DNA of 25,944 nucleotides from a virus. Below, piece by piece: positions 2,147 through 24,315 of the stretch (its first letter is position 1; each line of letters starts with the position of its first letter). The notes beneath the pieces were generated by a model, which made no database searches, had not been told where the DNA came from, and saw nothing but the letters and a program-made list of their open reading frames with translations. The stretch is taken from the IMG/VR virus record IMGVR_UViG_3300009108_000727, positions 1 through 25,944 of that record; one strand, given 5' to 3'. A program made the position numbers and the translations under genes.

Positions 2147-2175
2147 ATTATAACATAAAAAATTTATAAAGTCAA
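2147..2175 (-). promoter_or_regulatory. Consensus sigma70 promoter of the dexA-like gene
   Basis: Minus strand: TTGACT (2175-2170), a 17-base spacer ending in ATGT, and TATAAT (2152-2147), giving an extended -10 (TGTTATAAT). Transcription should start about 7 bases later, at or next to the A of the dexA ATG at 2140, so a leaderless mRNA is predicted. The -35 box overlaps the last codons of the halogenase gene. The same layout occurs at 7975, 15899 and 22564. Confidence 0.8.
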
Positions 2176-3749
2176 ATTGATTCGTACCATTCTGTTAGAA
2201 AATCATAATGGTTAGGAAAAGTTTTTATTACATTGTCCATTCTATGTTTATGAACATCTAATACCATTTTACTATACTGTATAAAATCATCACTATATGA
2301 TCTTTTAATATTTTCGTAATGACCAAATCCTTTTAATAATTGCCACCAATGACCAGAAGCAAATATAGGAGAATTTGCTTCAACATATCTAAAACCTGGC
2401 ATGTCTTTCATTTGCATATCATAAAACATAGTTTGGGATAAAGGCCCATCTTTTATTGCATTATACATAGGCATTATTTTATCTGGTATTGGTCTTTCTT
2501 TTATTTCTTTCCAAAATTGTGTATCATTTTTTGGCGCCATTCTATAATGCATATATATAAAATCTACCATTTCATCTACTTGTATACTAAACATTCGACT
2601 TATATGCGATCCCATAGCCTCATTATACATATTTTGTGTTTCATATAATAACTTGGCTAAATTACCTATTGCAATTACTGTAAATGCTAAATTTGTTGCT
2701 TCTAATGGTTCTAAAAATCCTGCAGAAAGCCCAACAGCATATACATTTTTAATGGATATTGTTTCTCGTGTTCCTGCTTTAAATGGTATATGTAATGCTG
2801 GCGAATCCCAATCATTTATTTTTGTTCGTATTTCTTTTTCTGCATCATCTTTATCTATATATTTGTCACTGTAAACATATCCATAGGCTAAATCATCATA
2901 GGTAGGTATTGTCCACATCCAGCCCGAAGTCATTGCAGTAGATTTGGTATAAGGATGACATTCTTTTTGGGGATTGGTATATTTTTTTCTTATCGCTATA
3001 GCATTATTTGTAGGTAAAATCTCCTGTACCGAATGCCATTGGCATTGATATATAAGATCAAATAAAACAGAATTAAATCCCGAACAATCTACAAAAATAT
3101 CACCTGAAAGATTTTCCATTCTATCTTCTAAAATTAACTCTTTTACATATCCTTCTTGATCTAAATTTGCATCTACGACACTATCAACGACATGTGTTAC
3201 ACCAAGTTTTATACATTCTTGTTTTAAAAAATCTATTACTGCAATATTGTCCCATTGTACTGCATTAGGCGGAGGAGTAGAATGACCATTAAGATAATTA
3301 AATCGCTCCTTACCCATTTTAGGTGATTTATTGTTTATTGCTAATCGATATGAAGGAAACCAATTAGACCAATCTTTTGCAGTCATGCCTGTTGCTATTG
3401 CGGCATCATGTGTACCATACGAATCATATTCTGTTGTATCTAGTATACTAAATACTGCCGATTCACTATCGACTAAAAATTGATTATCAGGATTCCATCC
3501 GTCAAACATTACTCCCGATTTATAAGTTGCCTTACATTTTGGCATCCAGTCTGTTTGATTATATCCTGCGAATTCGAAAAAAGCAGAAACCGATGGTTGA
3601 GTACTTTCACCTACTCCTATGGTGGATATCTTTTTTGATTCTATTACTGTTATATTATATTCTTTTCTTTTTAGTAAGAATAGTGCGGCCATCCACCCAG
3701 AGGTTCCGCCACCTATAATAACAATATCTTTTACTTTTATATCTTTCAT
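2172..3749 (-). CDS. Flavin-dependent tryptophan-halogenase-like protein
   Basis: The 525-residue protein fits the PrnA/RebH family, which uses FADH2, O2 and halide to make HOCl and halogenate an aromatic substrate. Seen: the FAD-binding GGGTSGW (13-19), GVGESTQPS (45-53), the catalytic lysine K77 in ATYKSG at the place of PrnA K79, the diagnostic WMWTIP (WxWxIP, 277-282), and FLEPLEATN (345-353) whose second Glu matches PrnA E346. Both key residues are therefore kept. Homologues occur in marine T4-like phages, but the viral substrate is unknown. A separate flavin reductase is normally needed and none is seen in the window. It is followed by dexA and preceded, 1 base away, by a small acidic protein gene. 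The family is clear, the substrate open. Confidence 0.88.
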   Translation of the reverse strand: MKDIKVKDIVIIGGGTSGWMAALFLLKRKEYNITVIESKKISTIGVGESTQPSVSAFFEFAGYNQTDWMPKCKATYKSGVMFDGWNPDNQFLVDSESAVFSILDTTEYDSYGTHDAAIATGMTAKDWSNWFPSYRLAINNKSPKMGKERFNYLNGHSTPPPNAVQWDNIAVIDFLKQECIKLGVTHVVDSVVDANLDQEGYVKELILEDRMENLSGDIFVDCSGFNSVLFDLIYQCQWHSVQEILPTNNAIAIRKKYTNPQKECHPYTKSTAMTSGWMWTIPTYDDLAYGYVYSDKYIDKDDAEKEIRTKINDWDSPALHIPFKAGTRETISIKNVYAVGLSAGFLEPLEATNLAFTVIAIGNLAKLLYETQNMYNEAMGSHISRMFSIQVDEMVDFIYMHYRMAPKNDTQFWKEIKERPIPDKIMPMYNAIKDGPLSQTMFYDMQMKDMPGFRYVEANSPIFASGHWWQLLKGFGHYENIKRSYSDDFIQYSKMVLDVHKHRMDNVIKTFPNHYDFLTEWYESI

Positions 3750-6511: not shown

Positions 6512-7067
6512 AAGGTAGTTTTTCTATTTTTCTATAATTTCTACATCTTCCGAATTCATGTATTGCCATTCCACCAATTCGTCTAAATTGGATATTGGGA
6601 AAGGAATGAAAGGTCCAGAGAAGTTGTCTTGTGGTAGCAGATTCCACTGAGAAGTGGCGTTCTGAGCCTCTACTACAATAATGGAGAGATCCTTCGTAGA
6701 TATTTCTGTATTCTTCTTCTCCGCCAATGTCAAATCCTATAAGATATATTATATTTGGTAATTGCGTTGCGGCATAATAACATGCTAATGCTCCACAATT
6801 CCATTTTTTCCATTTATTATTTGTTTCGATATGTGTCGCCGAAGGACAACTATATTTATTCGGTGAAATTACTGTATGTGCTTTTGAATAACCACTTACA
6901 TGAATTTCATTGCACATTCTATCATCAACACAAAAAAGAATGTCAGGTTGAAATTCTCTATATATTGCATTACATCCGTATACTATATAATCTTTTTTTA
7001 GTTGCCAAAGATCTATATTTTTTCTACTAACACCATTTCCGACAACTATAATATCATACTGTTTCAA
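6492..7067 (-). CDS. Putative glycosyltransferase-like protein (DUF115/GT42-like)
   Basis: The 191-residue protein begins with a nucleotide-binding-like strand-loop (YDIIVVGNGVSRKNID). It continues with YIVYGCNAIYREFQPDILFCVDDRM and a later NIIYLIGFDIGG near 112-122. The 'GNGxS', 'YGxNAxY' and 'YLxGFD' blocks resemble DUF115/MptE-like proteins and GT42 sialyltransferases, which share a Rossmann-like fold using nucleotide-activated donors. It may modify a glycan, a virion protein or a host surface molecule; the donor is unknown. The ATG lies inside the end of clpS (14-base overlap). I am fairly sure of the fold class but not of activity. Confidence 0.5.
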   Translation of the reverse strand: MKQYDIIVVGNGVSRKNIDLWQLKKDYIVYGCNAIYREFQPDILFCVDDRMCNEIHVSGYSKAHTVISPNKYSCPSATHIETNNKWKKWNCGALACYYAATQLPNIIYLIGFDIGGEEEYRNIYEGSLHYCSRGSERHFSVESATTRQLLWTFHSFPNIQFRRIGGMAIHEFGRCRNYRKIEKLPYENKNN

Positions 7068-7368
7068 TTTCGACGTTTAGAGGATGGCCTTTAGATCTTG
7101 CCAAATGAGTAGTTTCTAATGCTTTTTGTTCGGCTATTTCATAAAAAAACACACCAGCAGTTCCTTTACCTTTTTCATGAATATCTATCATTATCTTTTC
7201 TGCGGCTTCTTTTGAATGATGAAAAATAGCCATTAATGCTTCTACAACAAATTCCATTGGTGTAAAATTATCATTAATAAAAATGACTTGATATTTTTCG
7301 GGTTCTTTTAAATTTTGAACTGTTTTTGTATCTTTTTCAACTATAGTTTCAACATCAGGCATGAGCAA
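7054..7368 (-). CDS. clpS: ClpS, adaptor for N-end rule substrates of Clp proteases
   Basis: The 104-residue protein matches ClpS from residue ~25 on: YQVIFINDNFTPMEFVVEAL, then DIHEKGKGTAGVFFYEIAE, then ARSKGHPL. ClpS delivers proteins with N-terminal Leu, Phe, Tyr or Trp to ClpA-type unfoldases. Of the E. coli pocket residues, N34, D35, M40 and H66 correspond to N32, D33, M38 and H64 here, while D36 is replaced by N34. The flexible N-terminal tail (residues 1-24) that engages the unfoldase is present and rich in charged residues. It follows hsp20 behind a hairpin and is translationally overlapped with the glycosyltransferase-like gene. No ClpA is seen in the window, so it would work with host ClpAP, or redirect it. 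Confidence 0.93.
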   Translation of the reverse strand: MLMPDVETIVEKDTKTVQNLKEPEKYQVIFINDNFTPMEFVVEALMAIFHHSKEAAEKIMIDIHEKGKGTAGVFFYEIAEQKALETTHLARSKGHPLNVEIETV

Positions 7369-7395
7369 ACCTTTTTTTATATTTAGTTAATATGA

Positions 7396-7421
7396 ATGCG
7401 GTGCCAGTTTTGACACCGCAT
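7396..7421 (-). terminator. Hairpin between hsp20 and clpS (attenuator or weak terminator)
   Basis: Inverted repeat with a 10-bp stem (ATGCGGTGTC/GGCACCGCAT on the minus strand) and a 6-base loop. The ninth pair is G.U on the minus strand but a C.A mismatch on the plus strand, so it forms best in the hsp20-clpS transcript. No clean U-run follows, so partial termination, processing or mRNA stabilisation are all possible. Confidence 0.55.
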
Positions 7422-7431
7422 ATAAAGTTGC

Positions 7432-7893
7432 TTAATTAACCGTGATAGGAATTACCTTAGGCTTTTCTTCCTCAGGAATTTCCTGTTCTAAATCAATAGT
7501 CAACATGCCATTTTTAAGGGTTGCATCCTTAACTAGCACATGTGGACCTAAACGAAAAGTTCGCTCAAAAGAACGGTTAGCAATACCACGATGAGCAAAA
7601 TGATCTTTGTCATCATTTTCTTTACTTTCAATTTTACCTTTAACTGTAAGATTGCGTTCTTTTTGTGAAACTTCTATATCATCTTCACCAAAGCCAGCAA
7701 TGGCCATTGAAATTACCCATTTACCGTCATCAAGTTGCTCGATGTTGTAGGGTGGATACCCTGTAGACGAACCTGTATATGTGTTAGAAAACTGCTCTAA
7801 GTCTCTAAACATACGGTCCATTCCAACCGTAAACGGTGTTAGTGAAGTAATGAAATCGCTAAGATTTTCGGTTGTGAGGTGTCTATGTGTCAT
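7432..7893 (-). CDS. Small heat shock protein, Hsp20/IbpA family
   Basis: The 153-residue protein is an ATP-independent chaperone of the alpha-crystallin type, which holds unfolding proteins. Seen: an N-terminal arm, the alpha-crystallin domain from about residue 45 (YNIEQLDDGKWVISMAIAGF, DIEVSQKERNLTVKGK, GIANRSFERTFRLG, ATLKNGMLTIDL), and a C-terminal IPI in VIPITV, the IxI motif that binds neighbouring subunits. I choose the ATG at 7893 rather than 7917 because AAGGAGAAAATT sits just before it. A consensus promoter at 7975-8003 gives an untranslated leader of about 75 bases. Hsp20 genes are frequent in T4-like marine phages and are thought to help virion assembly. Confidence 0.93.
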   Translation of the reverse strand: MTHRHLTTENLSDFITSLTPFTVGMDRMFRDLEQFSNTYTGSSTGYPPYNIEQLDDGKWVISMAIAGFGEDDIEVSQKERNLTVKGKIESKENDDKDHFAHRGIANRSFERTFRLGPHVLVKDATLKNGMLTIDLEQEIPEEEKPKVIPITVN

Positions 7894-7974
7894 AATTTTC
7901 TCCTTTTTTATAAGCAAGACAGAGTTAGATTAACCCATTATGGCATTAATCTTCTCCTCATATTATTTATCACT

Positions 7975-8003
7975 ATTATAACATGGTATAATGATAAAGT
8001 CAA
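7975..8003 (-). promoter_or_regulatory. Consensus sigma70 promoter upstream of hsp20
   Basis: Minus strand: TTGACT (8003-7998), a 17-base spacer ending in ATGT, and TATAAT (7980-7975). The -35 box overlaps the last codons of rpsU. The expected start is near 7968, leaving a leader of about 75 bases that holds a second purine-rich GAGGAG stretch upstream of the true ribosome binding site. It is one of four like-built promoters. Confidence 0.78.
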
Positions 8004-8212
8004 TAATTTTTTATTCTACCTTCATATAATTTTTCCAAGTTTCGTTCTATACGACGAATTGCTTGAGCTTTAAGTCTGCGCCTTTTCTTTGACGGTTTTT
8101 CATAGGATTGTCGGTCCCTACATTCTTTTAACGTGCCTTCGGCATTAATTTTTTTCTTTAATAATTTAATTGCTTTTTCTGCATTATTATTTCTTACTTC
8201 AATTGTTAACAT
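8000..8212 (-). CDS. rpsU: Ribosomal protein bS21
   Basis: The 70-residue protein is bS21, the small basic protein of the 30S subunit near the anti-Shine-Dalgarno end of 16S rRNA. Seen: EVRNNNAEKAIKLLKKKINAEG (the 'ExxxxAlrrfkr' helix region), then the basic KKRRRLKAQAIRRIER block typical of the family. Length is as expected. Its ATG overlaps the end of infC by 7 bases. Phage-borne bS21 has been described in marine phages, including pelagiphages, and is proposed to replace the host protein and bias initiation. Together with IF-3 next door, that suggests phage control of start-site choice. Confidence 0.92.
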   Translation of the reverse strand: MLTIEVRNNNAEKAIKLLKKKINAEGTLKECRDRQSYEKPSKKRRRLKAQAIRRIERNLEKLYEGRIKNY

Positions 8213-8754
8213 TTTAAAATTGCTACGATACTTGAACCGACAAATTTAGGCTCTGAAAGGAAATCTGTTTTCAAACTTTTCGATAATCGTTCAAAAAGTT
8301 CTAATCCGTGCTCTTTGTATATATACCGTTCGCGACCTTTAAATCGAACTACAATTTTTACTTGATCACCTTTATCTAAAAACTTTTTAATTTTGTTTGC
8401 TTTAACTTCAAAATCATGGTTATCAATTTTTGGTCTAAATTGCATTTCTTTTAACTCAGTCCGAGTTGCACGAGCATTTTTTGCTAGAGCTTTCTTCCTT
8501 TGTTGTTCTTTATATACGTATTTATTTAAATCCACAATTTTTGCAACCGGTGGATCTGCTTTTTCAGATACAACTACAACCTCTAATTCCCGTTCACGAG
8601 CAATTGATATGGCTTTTCTAGTCTCCATAACTCCCAATTGTTCGCCCTTTTCATCTATAAGCCGTAACATAGGGTGGCTTATATAATTACTTCGTCTGTT
8701 GTTTTTTCCCGTAAACGAGGAATGGTTCCTGTTGTTTCGTGATCGTGTCTTCAT
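8206..8754 (-). CDS. infC: Translation initiation factor IF-3
   Basis: The 182-residue protein is full-length IF-3, which binds the 30S subunit, keeps it free of 50S and checks the start codon and initiator tRNA. The N-domain ([22 protein letters not shown]), the linker with [23 protein letters not shown], and the C-domain ([33 protein letters not shown]-like) are all seen. The first 25 residues are an Arg/Asn-rich extension. The ATG at 8754 overlaps the end of clpX by 68 bases, a long overlap here. I keep this start because the block before MLRLID (NYISHP) fits the family and an AAGG site lies about 11 bases upstream. An internal ATG at 8670 is the alternative. Confidence 0.93.
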
Positions 8755-9919
8755 TTATAACTACCTTTTCTATGCCTTTCTTTTCGTATGTTGGTAAGTT
8801 AAATTGCACATCTAATAATGCATTTTCTATAACTGATCGCAATCCTCTTGCGCCGACTTTTGTATCATTACAAATTTTAACTATTTCTTCACATGCTTTA
8901 TCTGTAAATTCTAATTTAACATTATCCATTTCAAATATTCGTTTAAATTGTTTAATAATGCTATTTTTAGGTTCTTGTAATACTTGTATTAACTGTTTTT
9001 TTGTAAGTTCTTTTAAACCTACACGTACAGGTACTCTACCTACTAATTCAGGTATCATGCCATACTCAACTAAATCGTCTGGTTCTACTCGATTAAAATA
9101 ATTTGTGTCATCTTGTTGTTCATCTATTATTGCTCCAAATCCTATCGATTTTGTTTTGTTTAATCGTTTTTTAATATGCTTTTCTAAATCTATAAATGCT
9201 CCTCCTAATATAAACAATATGTTTTTAGTATCAACTTCTACTATTTCAGATTGAGGATGCTTTCTTCCACCTGCTGGGGGTACACGAACTTCGGTGCCTT
9301 CTATCATTTTTAACAATGCTTGTTGGACTCCTTCGCCGCTTACATCTCTCGTAATACTTGCAGATTCAGATTTTCGTCCTTTTTTATCTATTTCATCAAC
9401 ATATACAATACCTTTTTCTGCCCTATCAATATCATATTCTGCATTATGCAATAGTTTAGTTATTAAATTTTCTACATCATCGCCTACATATCCTGCTTCT
9501 GTTACTGTAGTTGCATCGGCTATTGCAAATGGCACATCTAATATTTTTGCTACTGTACTTGCCATTAATGTTTTACCACAGCCAGACGGACCTAATAACA
9601 GTACATTAGATTTATCCAATTCTATGTCTGATGCTATATGATTAATTCGTTTATAATGATTATATACTGCTACTGATAAGACTTTTTTTGCTTCGTGTTG
9701 ACCAATGACAAATTCATTTAAATGGTCGTAAATTGCTTGTGGGGTGTAAACATAATGTTCATTAATTTCACTTTCTTCTTCACTAATAATATCAAAGGAA
9801 AGTTTAATACATTCGTCGCATATAAAAGCGCCGTTGTCAGGACCTTGAATTAATTTTTTAACTTCTTCTCGAGTTTTATTACAAAAACTACAGATAAAGT
9901 TTTTAGTGTTCGGGTTCAT
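8687..9919 (-). CDS. clpX: ClpX, AAA+ unfoldase of the ClpXP protease
   Basis: The 410-residue protein is complete. It has the C4 zinc-binding domain (C10, C13, C34, C37), Walker A GPSGCGKT (110-117), pore-1 loop GYVG (143-146), Walker B IVYVDEID (171-178), the RKH loop (219-221) that handles ssrA tags, and the IGF loop (259-261) that docks on ClpP. The C-terminal small domain ends with the usual [12 protein letters not shown] region. All parts for ATP-driven unfolding and ClpP binding are therefore kept; no ClpP gene is seen, so host ClpP is the likely partner. The neighbourhood (infC, rpsU, clpS, hsp20 and a tmRNA gene) points to phage takeover of protein turnover. Its start overlaps the upstream membrane-protein gene by 17 bases. 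Confidence 0.96.
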
Positions 9920-15221: not shown

Positions 15222-15452
15222 TTATTTGTTTTCAACAAATTCGTAGAGCTCAGTGGCCTTAGTCTTAATATCATCAATGCTATATGACTTTGGCTGAAGT
15301 TCTTTCCAAAACTCCATAGTTGCGGTACCGTTCTCTATTGCTAGATTCCAAGCATCCGTAACAAATTGCTCTTGCCTTGCTGTTTGTTCTTGAAGATAGC
15401 CTTGGGCCATTTCAAGTAATTTGAATCTAAGTTCAAATGGATTACTAGACAT
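15222..15452 (-). CDS. Conserved-looking small hypothetical protein
   Basis: The 76-residue protein begins MSSNPFELRFKLLEMAQGYL and is predicted to be a mostly helical, soluble protein (helices near 6-45 and 58-74). Its style recalls short conserved proteins of T4-like marine phages, but I cannot name a family. I choose the ATG at 15452, preceded by AAGGAGAAAATT (the same ribosome binding site context as hsp20). A longer frame back to 15524 would run into the tmRNA and has no such site. The leader is a CA-repeat-like stretch (ACACACAGACACACACA) that links the gene to the tmRNA transcript. A strong terminator follows. Confidence 0.7.
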   Translation of the reverse strand: MSSNPFELRFKLLEMAQGYLQEQTARQEQFVTDAWNLAIENGTATMEFWKELQPKSYSIDDIKTKATELYEFVENK

Positions 15453-15483: not shown

Positions 15484-15892
15484 GGGGGAATTCTTCTGTT
15501 CCCAAGTGACCCCCCGGAGGACAATCCTCTAACTCGGCTACTGATTATGCGGCAAGCATAACCTGTGCAGGTGAATAATCGTTATTATTTGCGATTATGT
15601 TTTTTGTTGTCTCGTCGTTGCATCCCACGGTGTCGATATCTATTTCACCCCCATCAACTAAAAACTAAAAGAGCCAAATACTGTTATTTTCTAAAAAATT
15701 TATTCCAAACAAAACAATACCTATTATAAGACTAATAATAACGATTGTAGCAAATTCCCCGTCCATACCGATTCTCCCCGGAAGTACGAGTTTCATTTAT
15801 TCCATTAAATGCTTCTAATTTTTATTTGGTGGAGGTGGGCGGAATCGCACCGCCGTCCAGTCGTTTTCAACAAAGAGTCTTTAACAACATTA
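15484..15892 (-). ncRNA. ssrA: Circularly permuted (two-piece) tmRNA precursor
   Basis: Acceptor piece first (about 15890-15827): T-arm GGCGG-TGCGATT-CCGCC (15854-15838), acceptor strand CACCTCC, discriminator A and encoded CCA (ends 15827). After a ~174-base intervening segment, the coding piece starts at 15652 with GGGGGTG. It pairs fully with CACCTCC and includes a G3.U pair, the AlaRS identity element, followed by the conserved D-loop-like TATCGAC. The tag frame runs from resume codon GCA (15592) to TAA (15545) and encodes ANNNDYSPAQVMLAA, ending in the LAA recognised by ClpX. An 8-bp stem and a GAGGA/TCCTC hairpin follow. This order is the alphaproteobacterial two-piece form. tmRNA rescues stalled ribosomes with SmpB. 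A near-perfect promoter lies directly upstream. The 5' and 3' ends are approximate; a G5/C5 hairpin (15515-15484) may close or end the coding piece. Confidence 0.92.
15665..15766 (-). CDS. Putative 33-residue membrane peptide inside the tmRNA intervening segment
   Basis: This ORF lies wholly within the segment removed between the two tmRNA pieces (15826-15653). It starts with ATG behind GGGGAGAA (spacing about 7 bases) and ends in TAG 12 bases before the coding piece. The product has an acidic start (MDGEFATIV), one hydrophobic span of about 18 residues (IVIISLIIGIVLFGINFL) and a polar end (ENNSIWLF). A strong ribosome binding site and a coherent membrane helix argue for translation; the small size argues for caution. 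If real, it would be made from the tmRNA precursor before processing. It might be a toxin-like, holin-like or regulatory peptide; nothing in the sequence decides this. Confidence 0.5.
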   Translation of the reverse strand: MDGEFATIVIISLIIGIVLFGINFLENNSIWLF

Positions 15893-15898
15893 ATATTT

Positions 15899-15927
15899 AT
15901 TATAACATAATTAAAATTGTGTGTCAA
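15899..15927 (-). promoter_or_regulatory. Consensus sigma70 promoter of the tmRNA gene
   Basis: Minus strand: TTGACA (15927-15922), a 17-base spacer ending in ATGT, and TATAAT (15904-15899). This is a perfect consensus with an extended -10. The predicted start near 15892 sits just before the hairpin AAAG-ACT-CTTT of the acceptor piece. It occupies the short gap after the stop of the 806-residue protein gene. Confidence 0.85.
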
Positions 15928-23733: not shown

Positions 23734-24315
23734 TTAGTTTAAAAGAGTTGTTACTAAAGATATTCTAGGTGTCTCACCACCATTGGTGACTGTATGATAC
23801 TTAGTATCATCATGTATCCATGCTTGTCCATCAGCAGGAATATGTATTACTTCATCTTCTATAATGTGCCTACATCCCGCATTTGATGTAATAGGAATGT
23901 GTATACGTTTTTCAGGATCTCTGTGCCAACTAATTGTTGACCTAGGTGGAAGCAACATTAATCGCATTCTACCTGTTTTATATTTTTCTGTTAATGTGTT
24001 ATATACTTCGGCAAAATATGTATGTTTAAAATGTTCATTAAATTCTGTATATGCATCTTCTTTAATTGGCTCACATCGTTCTACTTCTTCATAAGTATCA
24101 TCAGGGCGTGTCCAGTAATATCCTCGAACTTTTTGGCCTTCCCAAGGATCGCCATTCTTTTTATGATTTAATGCTAACGTATATGTTTCGTTAAAGTCTT
24201 TACCAATTAATGCTTTAGCAAGATTCCTAACTGTATGAGTTGCTTTTCGTAATTCTGCAATATTAAATGCTAAAGGGAGTTTTATAAATAATTCGTTATA
24301 TGTTACAATATTCAT
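23734..24315 (-). CDS. Aspartyl/asparaginyl beta-hydroxylase-like oxygenase
   Basis: The 193-residue protein ends in a compact AspH-like domain (PF05118): GRMRLMLLPPRSTISWHRDPEKRIHIPI with H131-x-D133, NAGCRHIIE, then GQAWIHDDTKYHTVTNGG with H174, and R184 in TPRISLVTTL. These match the iron triad (HxD...H) and the 2-oxoglutarate Arg of the family. The N-terminal half is variable, with YYWTRPDDT near 66-74. Such phage proteins are common in marine T4-like viruses. It would hydroxylate a protein or small molecule; the target is unknown. Confidence 0.8.
   Translation of the reverse strand: MNIVTYNELFIKLPLAFNIAELRKATHTVRNLAKALIGKDFNETYTLALNHKKNGDPWEGQKVRGYYWTRPDDTYEEVERCEPIKEDAYTEFNEHFKHTYFAEVYNTLTEKYKTGRMRLMLLPPRSTISWHRDPEKRIHIPITSNAGCRHIIEDEVIHIPADGQAWIHDDTKYHTVTNGGETPRISLVTTLLN

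Follow-up and report, generated by a model that had tools for sequence, protein, structure and literature searches.

The window, by which we mean the whole 25,944-nt stretch of viral DNA analysed here, carries on its minus strand a circularly permuted tmRNA gene whose acceptor piece lies upstream of its coding piece, and between the two pieces is an intervening segment (IVS) that itself holds an open reading frame. The features discussed are listed below from higher to lower coordinates, with the basis of each assignment in parentheses.

15899..15927, minus strand: sigma70-type promoter, TTGACA-17-TATAAT with extended -10 TG (12/12 matches)
15827..15889, minus strand: tmRNA acceptor (tRNA-like) piece (RF04321 alignment and sequence reading)
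15854-15838, minus strand: T-arm of the acceptor piece (RF04321 alignment and sequence reading)
15837-15831, minus strand: acceptor 3' strand CACCTCC (RF04321 alignment and sequence reading)
15830-15827, minus strand: discriminator A plus CCA, ACCA (RF04321 alignment and sequence reading)
15653..15826, minus strand: IVS, 174 nt (position between CCA and the acceptor 5' strand)
15665..15766, minus strand: nested ORF for a predicted 33-aa membrane peptide, MDGEFATIVIISLIIGIVLFGINFLENNSIWLF (SD-like GGGGAG upstream, shuffling, IVS ORFs of relatives)
15484..15652, minus strand: tmRNA coding (mRNA-like) piece (Rfam match, 3' end per the alpha_tmRNA model)
15652-15646, minus strand: acceptor 5' strand GGGGGTG (Rfam alignment and sequence reading)
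15545..15592, minus strand: tag frame ANNNDYSPAQVMLAA-stop (Rfam alignment and sequence reading)
15222..15452, minus strand: gene for a 76-aa protein, directly downstream of the tmRNA (at least 127 relatives in IMG/VR)
8687..9919, minus strand: ClpX homologue (Pfam zf-C4_ClpX 2.1e-15, AAA_2 5.4e-30, ClpB_D2-small)
7054..7341, minus strand: ClpS homologue (Pfam ClpS 8.7e-29)

In a cmscan search against Rfam, the permuted tmRNA model (RF04321, tmRNA_permuted) matched positions 15889-15545 of the minus strand at 83.0 bits (gathering cut-off 47, E 8.9e-15), and the alpha_tmRNA model (RF01849) matched 15931-15484 of the same strand at 56.8 bits (gathering cut-off 50). The first-pass annotation, made from the sequence alone, had described a phage-borne, circularly permuted tmRNA at this place and had named the alpha_tmRNA model and ARAGORN as checks; both covariance models bear the RNA out, and ARAGORN, run on the window, did not call the tmRNA at 15484-15892. 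The T-arm, the CCA at 15827, the pairing of GGGGGTG with CACCTCC including G3.U, and a tag frame ending in LAA and followed by a stop (at 15592-15545), all of which had been read by eye, were confirmed by the Rfam alignment and by direct reading. All seven pairs of the acceptor stem (7/7) are formed, including G3.U70, the alanine identity pair, and the tag opens with an alanine resume codon and closes with a hydrophobic AA end of the LAA type. The earlier observation of a permuted tmRNA is therefore confirmed as real and its interpretation partly supported; what it overlooked is that the IVS appears to be protein-coding. A DNA similarity search of the tmRNA against phage isolates retrieved short matches only, mostly to tRNA-like ends.

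The 76-aa gene gave access to relatives of the locus. From its relatives in IMG/VR, 80 contigs were kept, and 61 of these 80 have a permuted-tmRNA match; the matches that were placed in detail lie directly upstream of the 76-aa gene, and the two facts together rule out chance for the tmRNA. Members without a tmRNA that were read have other genes at the same spot, for instance an hsp20-like gene. The acceptor stem covaries among the relatives (GGGGGTG/CACCTCC, GGGGCTG/CAGCTCC, GGGGATG/CATCTCC and GGGGGCG/CGCCTCC), and in a set of cases located by covariance model, with anchors placed without use of the pairing, full acceptor pairing was found in 31 of 36, as against 13.5 expected by random re-pairing (maximum 23). 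The five unpaired acceptors look like errors of the regular-expression anchors rather than broken stems. This covariation is strong evidence that the two distant pieces belong to one RNA, and the tags of the relatives are homologous as well (ANNxDY...ALAA). The 76-aa gene, which is followed by a terminator-like site at 15212-15197, probably forms one transcription unit with the tmRNA. Its product had no match in Pfam or PHROGs and one distant match, in Roseobacter phage CRP-9. An identification of this neighbour with the late-transcription coactivator, the gene beside the tmRNA of phage Melnitz, was considered and dropped, as the two gave no alignment.

The IVS of two-piece tmRNAs has so far been regarded as a discarded spacer. 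That of the window, 174 nt long and with an ORF, departs from the short, non-coding IVS that is usual, although not defining, in the sampled bacteria: 200 related bacterial genomes, searched for the family, yielded 29 permuted tmRNAs as controls, with IVSs of 5-115 nt (median 30) that are mostly too short to hold a gene. A loose acceptor pattern run over genome contigs was also tried as a control and was dropped because standard tmRNAs share that end. The sequence of the window's IVS predicts a membrane peptide of 33 aa, for which no homologue with known function was found, and an alternative ATG upstream at 15796 would extend it to 43 aa. The longest ATG ORF of the IVS, 43 codons, has P = 0.0076 by shuffling. 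Since the copies of this ORF that were found (L122, L123) are all identical to it, the case for its being coding comes from the shuffle test, the SD-like motif and the relatives. An ordinary permuted phage tmRNA, with a neutral spacer for an IVS and an ORF that arose by chance from T-rich sequence, would agree with the lack of a diverged homologue of the window ORF, with the P of 0.048 for 33 or more codons in the same shuffling, and with the caveat that T-rich DNA yields hydrophobic ORFs readily. It would also agree with the short or non-coding IVSs of most other phage permuted tmRNAs and of L182 and L137, whose IVSs of 15-26 nt without an ORF indicate that the tmRNA does not need a nested gene. 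We nevertheless regard this explanation as unlikely, given the IVSs of the wider phage group.

Among the relatives, a set chosen by the 76-aa gene only, every distinct IVS of 60 nt or longer (32 of 32) contains an ATG ORF that covers at least 60% of the IVS, and the mean ORF coverage of these 32 is 86%, versus 31% in dinucleotide shuffles. In a mixed phage set chosen by acceptor pattern only, 3 of 32 IVSs are coding by the same measure, plus one with a GTG start, and the permuted tmRNAs of most phages outside the group have a non-coding IVS. A third set of IVSs was selected for SD and ATG and was therefore left out of this frequency claim; it was used in the selection tests and in the position counts given below. 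The group was compared on metagenome contigs, from sequence. The IVSs at L620 (1935-2467) and L621, of 366 and 267 nt, hold two or three overlapping small ORFs.

The products of these IVSs are unrelated to one another, comprising membrane peptides of 22-41 aa, basic proteins of 52-59 aa that end in DLWD, coiled-coil-like proteins and a protein with an SNase domain, with a 50-aa family beginning MKYKIVV as a further type. The single-span membrane peptides fall into the families MEK...YFGYDFR, MDKVLTWFF..., MNDT..., MDVKE... and MENKLV.... When the small IVS ORFs were searched against the profiles of PHROGs and Pfam, the one credible match was the SNase domain (Pfam SNase 2.2e-11), which belongs to a 146-aa protein in an IVS of 454-455 nt; proteins of the SNase type are present in several long IVSs. 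Six families in the relatives, the Melnitz type included, have purifying selection on the IVS reading frame. The in-frame pN/pS is 0.14 for SNase (95% CI 0.08-0.21), 0.19 for MDKV (0.04-0.59), 0.34 for MNDT (0.21-0.53, limits that overlap with one other frame), 0.51 for MEK30 (0.36-0.73) and 0.54 for MEK28 (0.35-0.79), while the other frames mostly stand at about 0.9 or higher. Taken together, the ORF coverage, the in-frame selection and the SNase-type proteins exclude neutrality for the group, though not strictly for the window's own allele. We consider it very probable that a T4-like marine phage here carries a genuine two-piece tmRNA gene and, nested between the two pieces, a small protein gene. 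A DLWD-family ORF was also seen outside any tmRNA, at about 2001-2153 of L619, where it is flanked by a structured-looking stretch without an Rfam match and by an SNase-like gene.

The pieces of the tmRNA and the contents of the IVS vary separately from each other. The coding pieces of L004 and L090 are 97% identical, yet the IVS is 88 nt and non-coding in the former and 175 nt and coding in the latter; likewise, the coding piece of L313 is 93% alike to that of the window's own type, and their IVSs differ. The SNase gene stands at a fixed place with the same neighbours, and the tmRNA halves around it vary between related phages: both halves are present in L536 and L538-542, the acceptor half only in L548, the coding half only in L537, and neither in L543-547 and L566. 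On the L537 contig (9.9 kb) the acceptor half was not found elsewhere. Such a pattern is what one would expect if the halves had been lost independently of each other around the cargo gene; a gain of halves, instead of a loss, is conceivable too.

The ORFs are closely fitted to the IVS. Their starts lie mostly 7-17 nt past the CCA, many being preceded by an SD-like motif, and their ends cluster at the RNase P site: in a count of 85 ORFs that includes the set selected for SD and ATG, 38 end at the TGA of a TGAT, one base before G1, another 36 stop within 27 nt of the RNase P site, and 74 in all end within the IVS. Some ORFs that read past the IVS (e.g. L048, L088 and L111) are probably chance ORFs. 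In phage Melnitz (MZ577097.1), with the tag ANDNYVPVDYALAA, the IVS is 142 nt long and its ORF, which corresponds to L497 1584-1745 and falls within 46,013-46,345 of MZ577097, is unannotated in the phage's record. ORFs of the Melnitz type have an in-frame pN/pS of 0.30 in relatives, together with a 24-nt in-frame insertion, and in the Melnitz clade the frame continues 42 nt beyond the RNase P site, so that processing would turn the fragment into a non-stop message.

These positions raise the question of whether processing of the RNA and expression of the nested gene are coupled, as a feedback sensor with an arfA-like logic, which would extend the nested-gene reading and does not exclude it. 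A ribosome stopping in the RNase P leader, at the TGAT before G1, would block folding of the acceptor stem, and the RNase P cut would produce an mRNA that has its stop at the very end or lacks one, which could then be tagged by the same tmRNA. The stop positions in the partly SD- and ATG-selected set of 85 are in keeping with such coupling, as are the ORFs of the Melnitz and MFExWHW types, in which no stop codon precedes the RNase P site, a feature that is conserved among the Melnitz alleles. However, other families stop normally 4-16 nt upstream, in L643-646 a stop lies inside the IVS, and tight packing alone could account for where the stops fall; we accordingly hold the coupling to be possible and rather doubtful. 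We are similarly tentative about the broader proposal that the marine-phage IVS is a cargo slot in which nested translation competes with RNase P cutting on the same precursor and the fragments are non-stop messages.

It is not new for a marine phage to carry a permuted tmRNA. Two-piece tmRNAs were predicted 53 times among 18,146 phage genomes, and the marine Methylophilales phage Melnitz was published with a two-piece ssrA in 2022 (PMC9004378). The first-pass annotation had called the permuted form together with clpX and clpS unusual; both genes are indeed present, and the permuted form alone is not unusual, being documented in marine phages (PMC9004378). The part that appears to be new is the protein-coding IVS, as we found no report of a protein gene within a tmRNA IVS in the open-licence literature; a 2025 tmRNA database paper mentions, among unusual IVSs, one with a tRNA gene and one with a repetitive element, and places endonucleases in group I introns. 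The RNA described here shares with the tmRNAs of RF04321 and RF01849 the acceptor-then-coding order, the G3.U70 pairing, the CCA, the resume codon and the tag; it differs in being phage-encoded, in its longer ANNxDY tag, and in having, instead of a short spacer, an IVS of 100-455 nt with protein genes. Melnitz and related marine myophages are likewise marine T4-like phages with a permuted tmRNA and, on re-reading, an IVS ORF, but in Melnitz the tmRNA lies upstream of the late-transcription coactivator, the IVS ORF crosses the RNase P site, and there is no match to the ClpX zinc finger. A protein gene inside a tmRNA gene is also found where group I introns with homing endonucleases interrupt it (PMC11915505); there the cargo sits in a self-splicing intron in the T-loop, whereas here its place is an IVS that tRNA-type processing would remove, and homing endonucleases were not seen.

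A 66-kb contig with a stretch near-identical to the window (G001) encodes a gp32-like SSB, a UvsX-like recombinase, helicases and structural proteins, which points to a T4-like marine phage. The claim that this phage also carries ClpX and ClpS is upheld by Pfam matches on both, and the phage ClpX is a possible partner of the tag; when 29 related or comparison records, many of which are fragments, were searched for ClpX, only 9 had it. SmpB was found in none of the 29 phage records (0/29, many of them fragments), and the same search retrieved it from 10 of 14 control genomes; probably, then, the phage RNA depends on host SmpB. The same result, together with the precedent of mycobacteriophage DS6A, could be taken to mean that the phage tmRNA is a decoy that titrates the SmpB or the tmRNA function of the host. 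A decoy role has been proposed for the tRNA-like-domain RNA of DS6A, which is also phage-encoded and tmRNA-derived. We think such a role highly improbable here, for the DS6A RNA has no tag frame whereas the tmRNA of the window has a complete one, and a decoy would need neither that frame, with its conserved ANNxDY start and LAA end, nor the retained G3.U70 and CCA.

Reading the locus as a tmRNA gene with a nested protein gene, we propose that, as in the known two-piece pathway, RNase P would cut the precursor before G15652 and maturation would take place at the CCA, after which the pieces would re-pair through the acceptor stem and be charged with alanine. With host SmpB, the tmRNA would rescue stalled ribosomes, and the tagged products would go to ClpXP, possibly with the phage ClpX. 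Translation of the IVS, either on the precursor or on an excised, leader-short mRNA, would give the 33-aa membrane peptide; a membrane role for it, in the timing of lysis or in the exclusion of superinfecting phages for example, would be guesswork. Across the phage group, the IVS behaves like a cargo slot for unrelated small protein genes. If phages do use it in this way, one transcript would give a two-half RNA, part tRNA-like and part mRNA-like, and a separate messenger, a new kind of link between RNA processing and protein output. There would also be a hidden class of microproteins that annotation skips because their bases fall within an RNA gene, with a case in the published and culturable phage Melnitz.

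The promoter of the window's tmRNA gene, claimed as its own and perfect, stands at 12 of 12 matches (15927-15899) with the extended TG, and a similar promoter is also present in the relatives L132 and L140. A T4-like late promoter box (TATAAATA) lies within 110 nt upstream of the T-arm in 15 of 34 relatives of the 76-aa gene, versus about 3% expected. With a sigma70-type promoter in the window, L132 and L140 and a T4-like late box in many relatives, expression timing may differ within the phage group. Elsewhere in the window, positions 7054-9919 form one run with ClpX, IF-3, ribosomal protein S21, Hsp20 and ClpS, positions 23734-24315 match an Asp/Asn beta-hydroxylase, and positions 2172-3749 look like a tryptophan halogenase gene; the 66-kb contig has two confirmed genes of this kind at other places.
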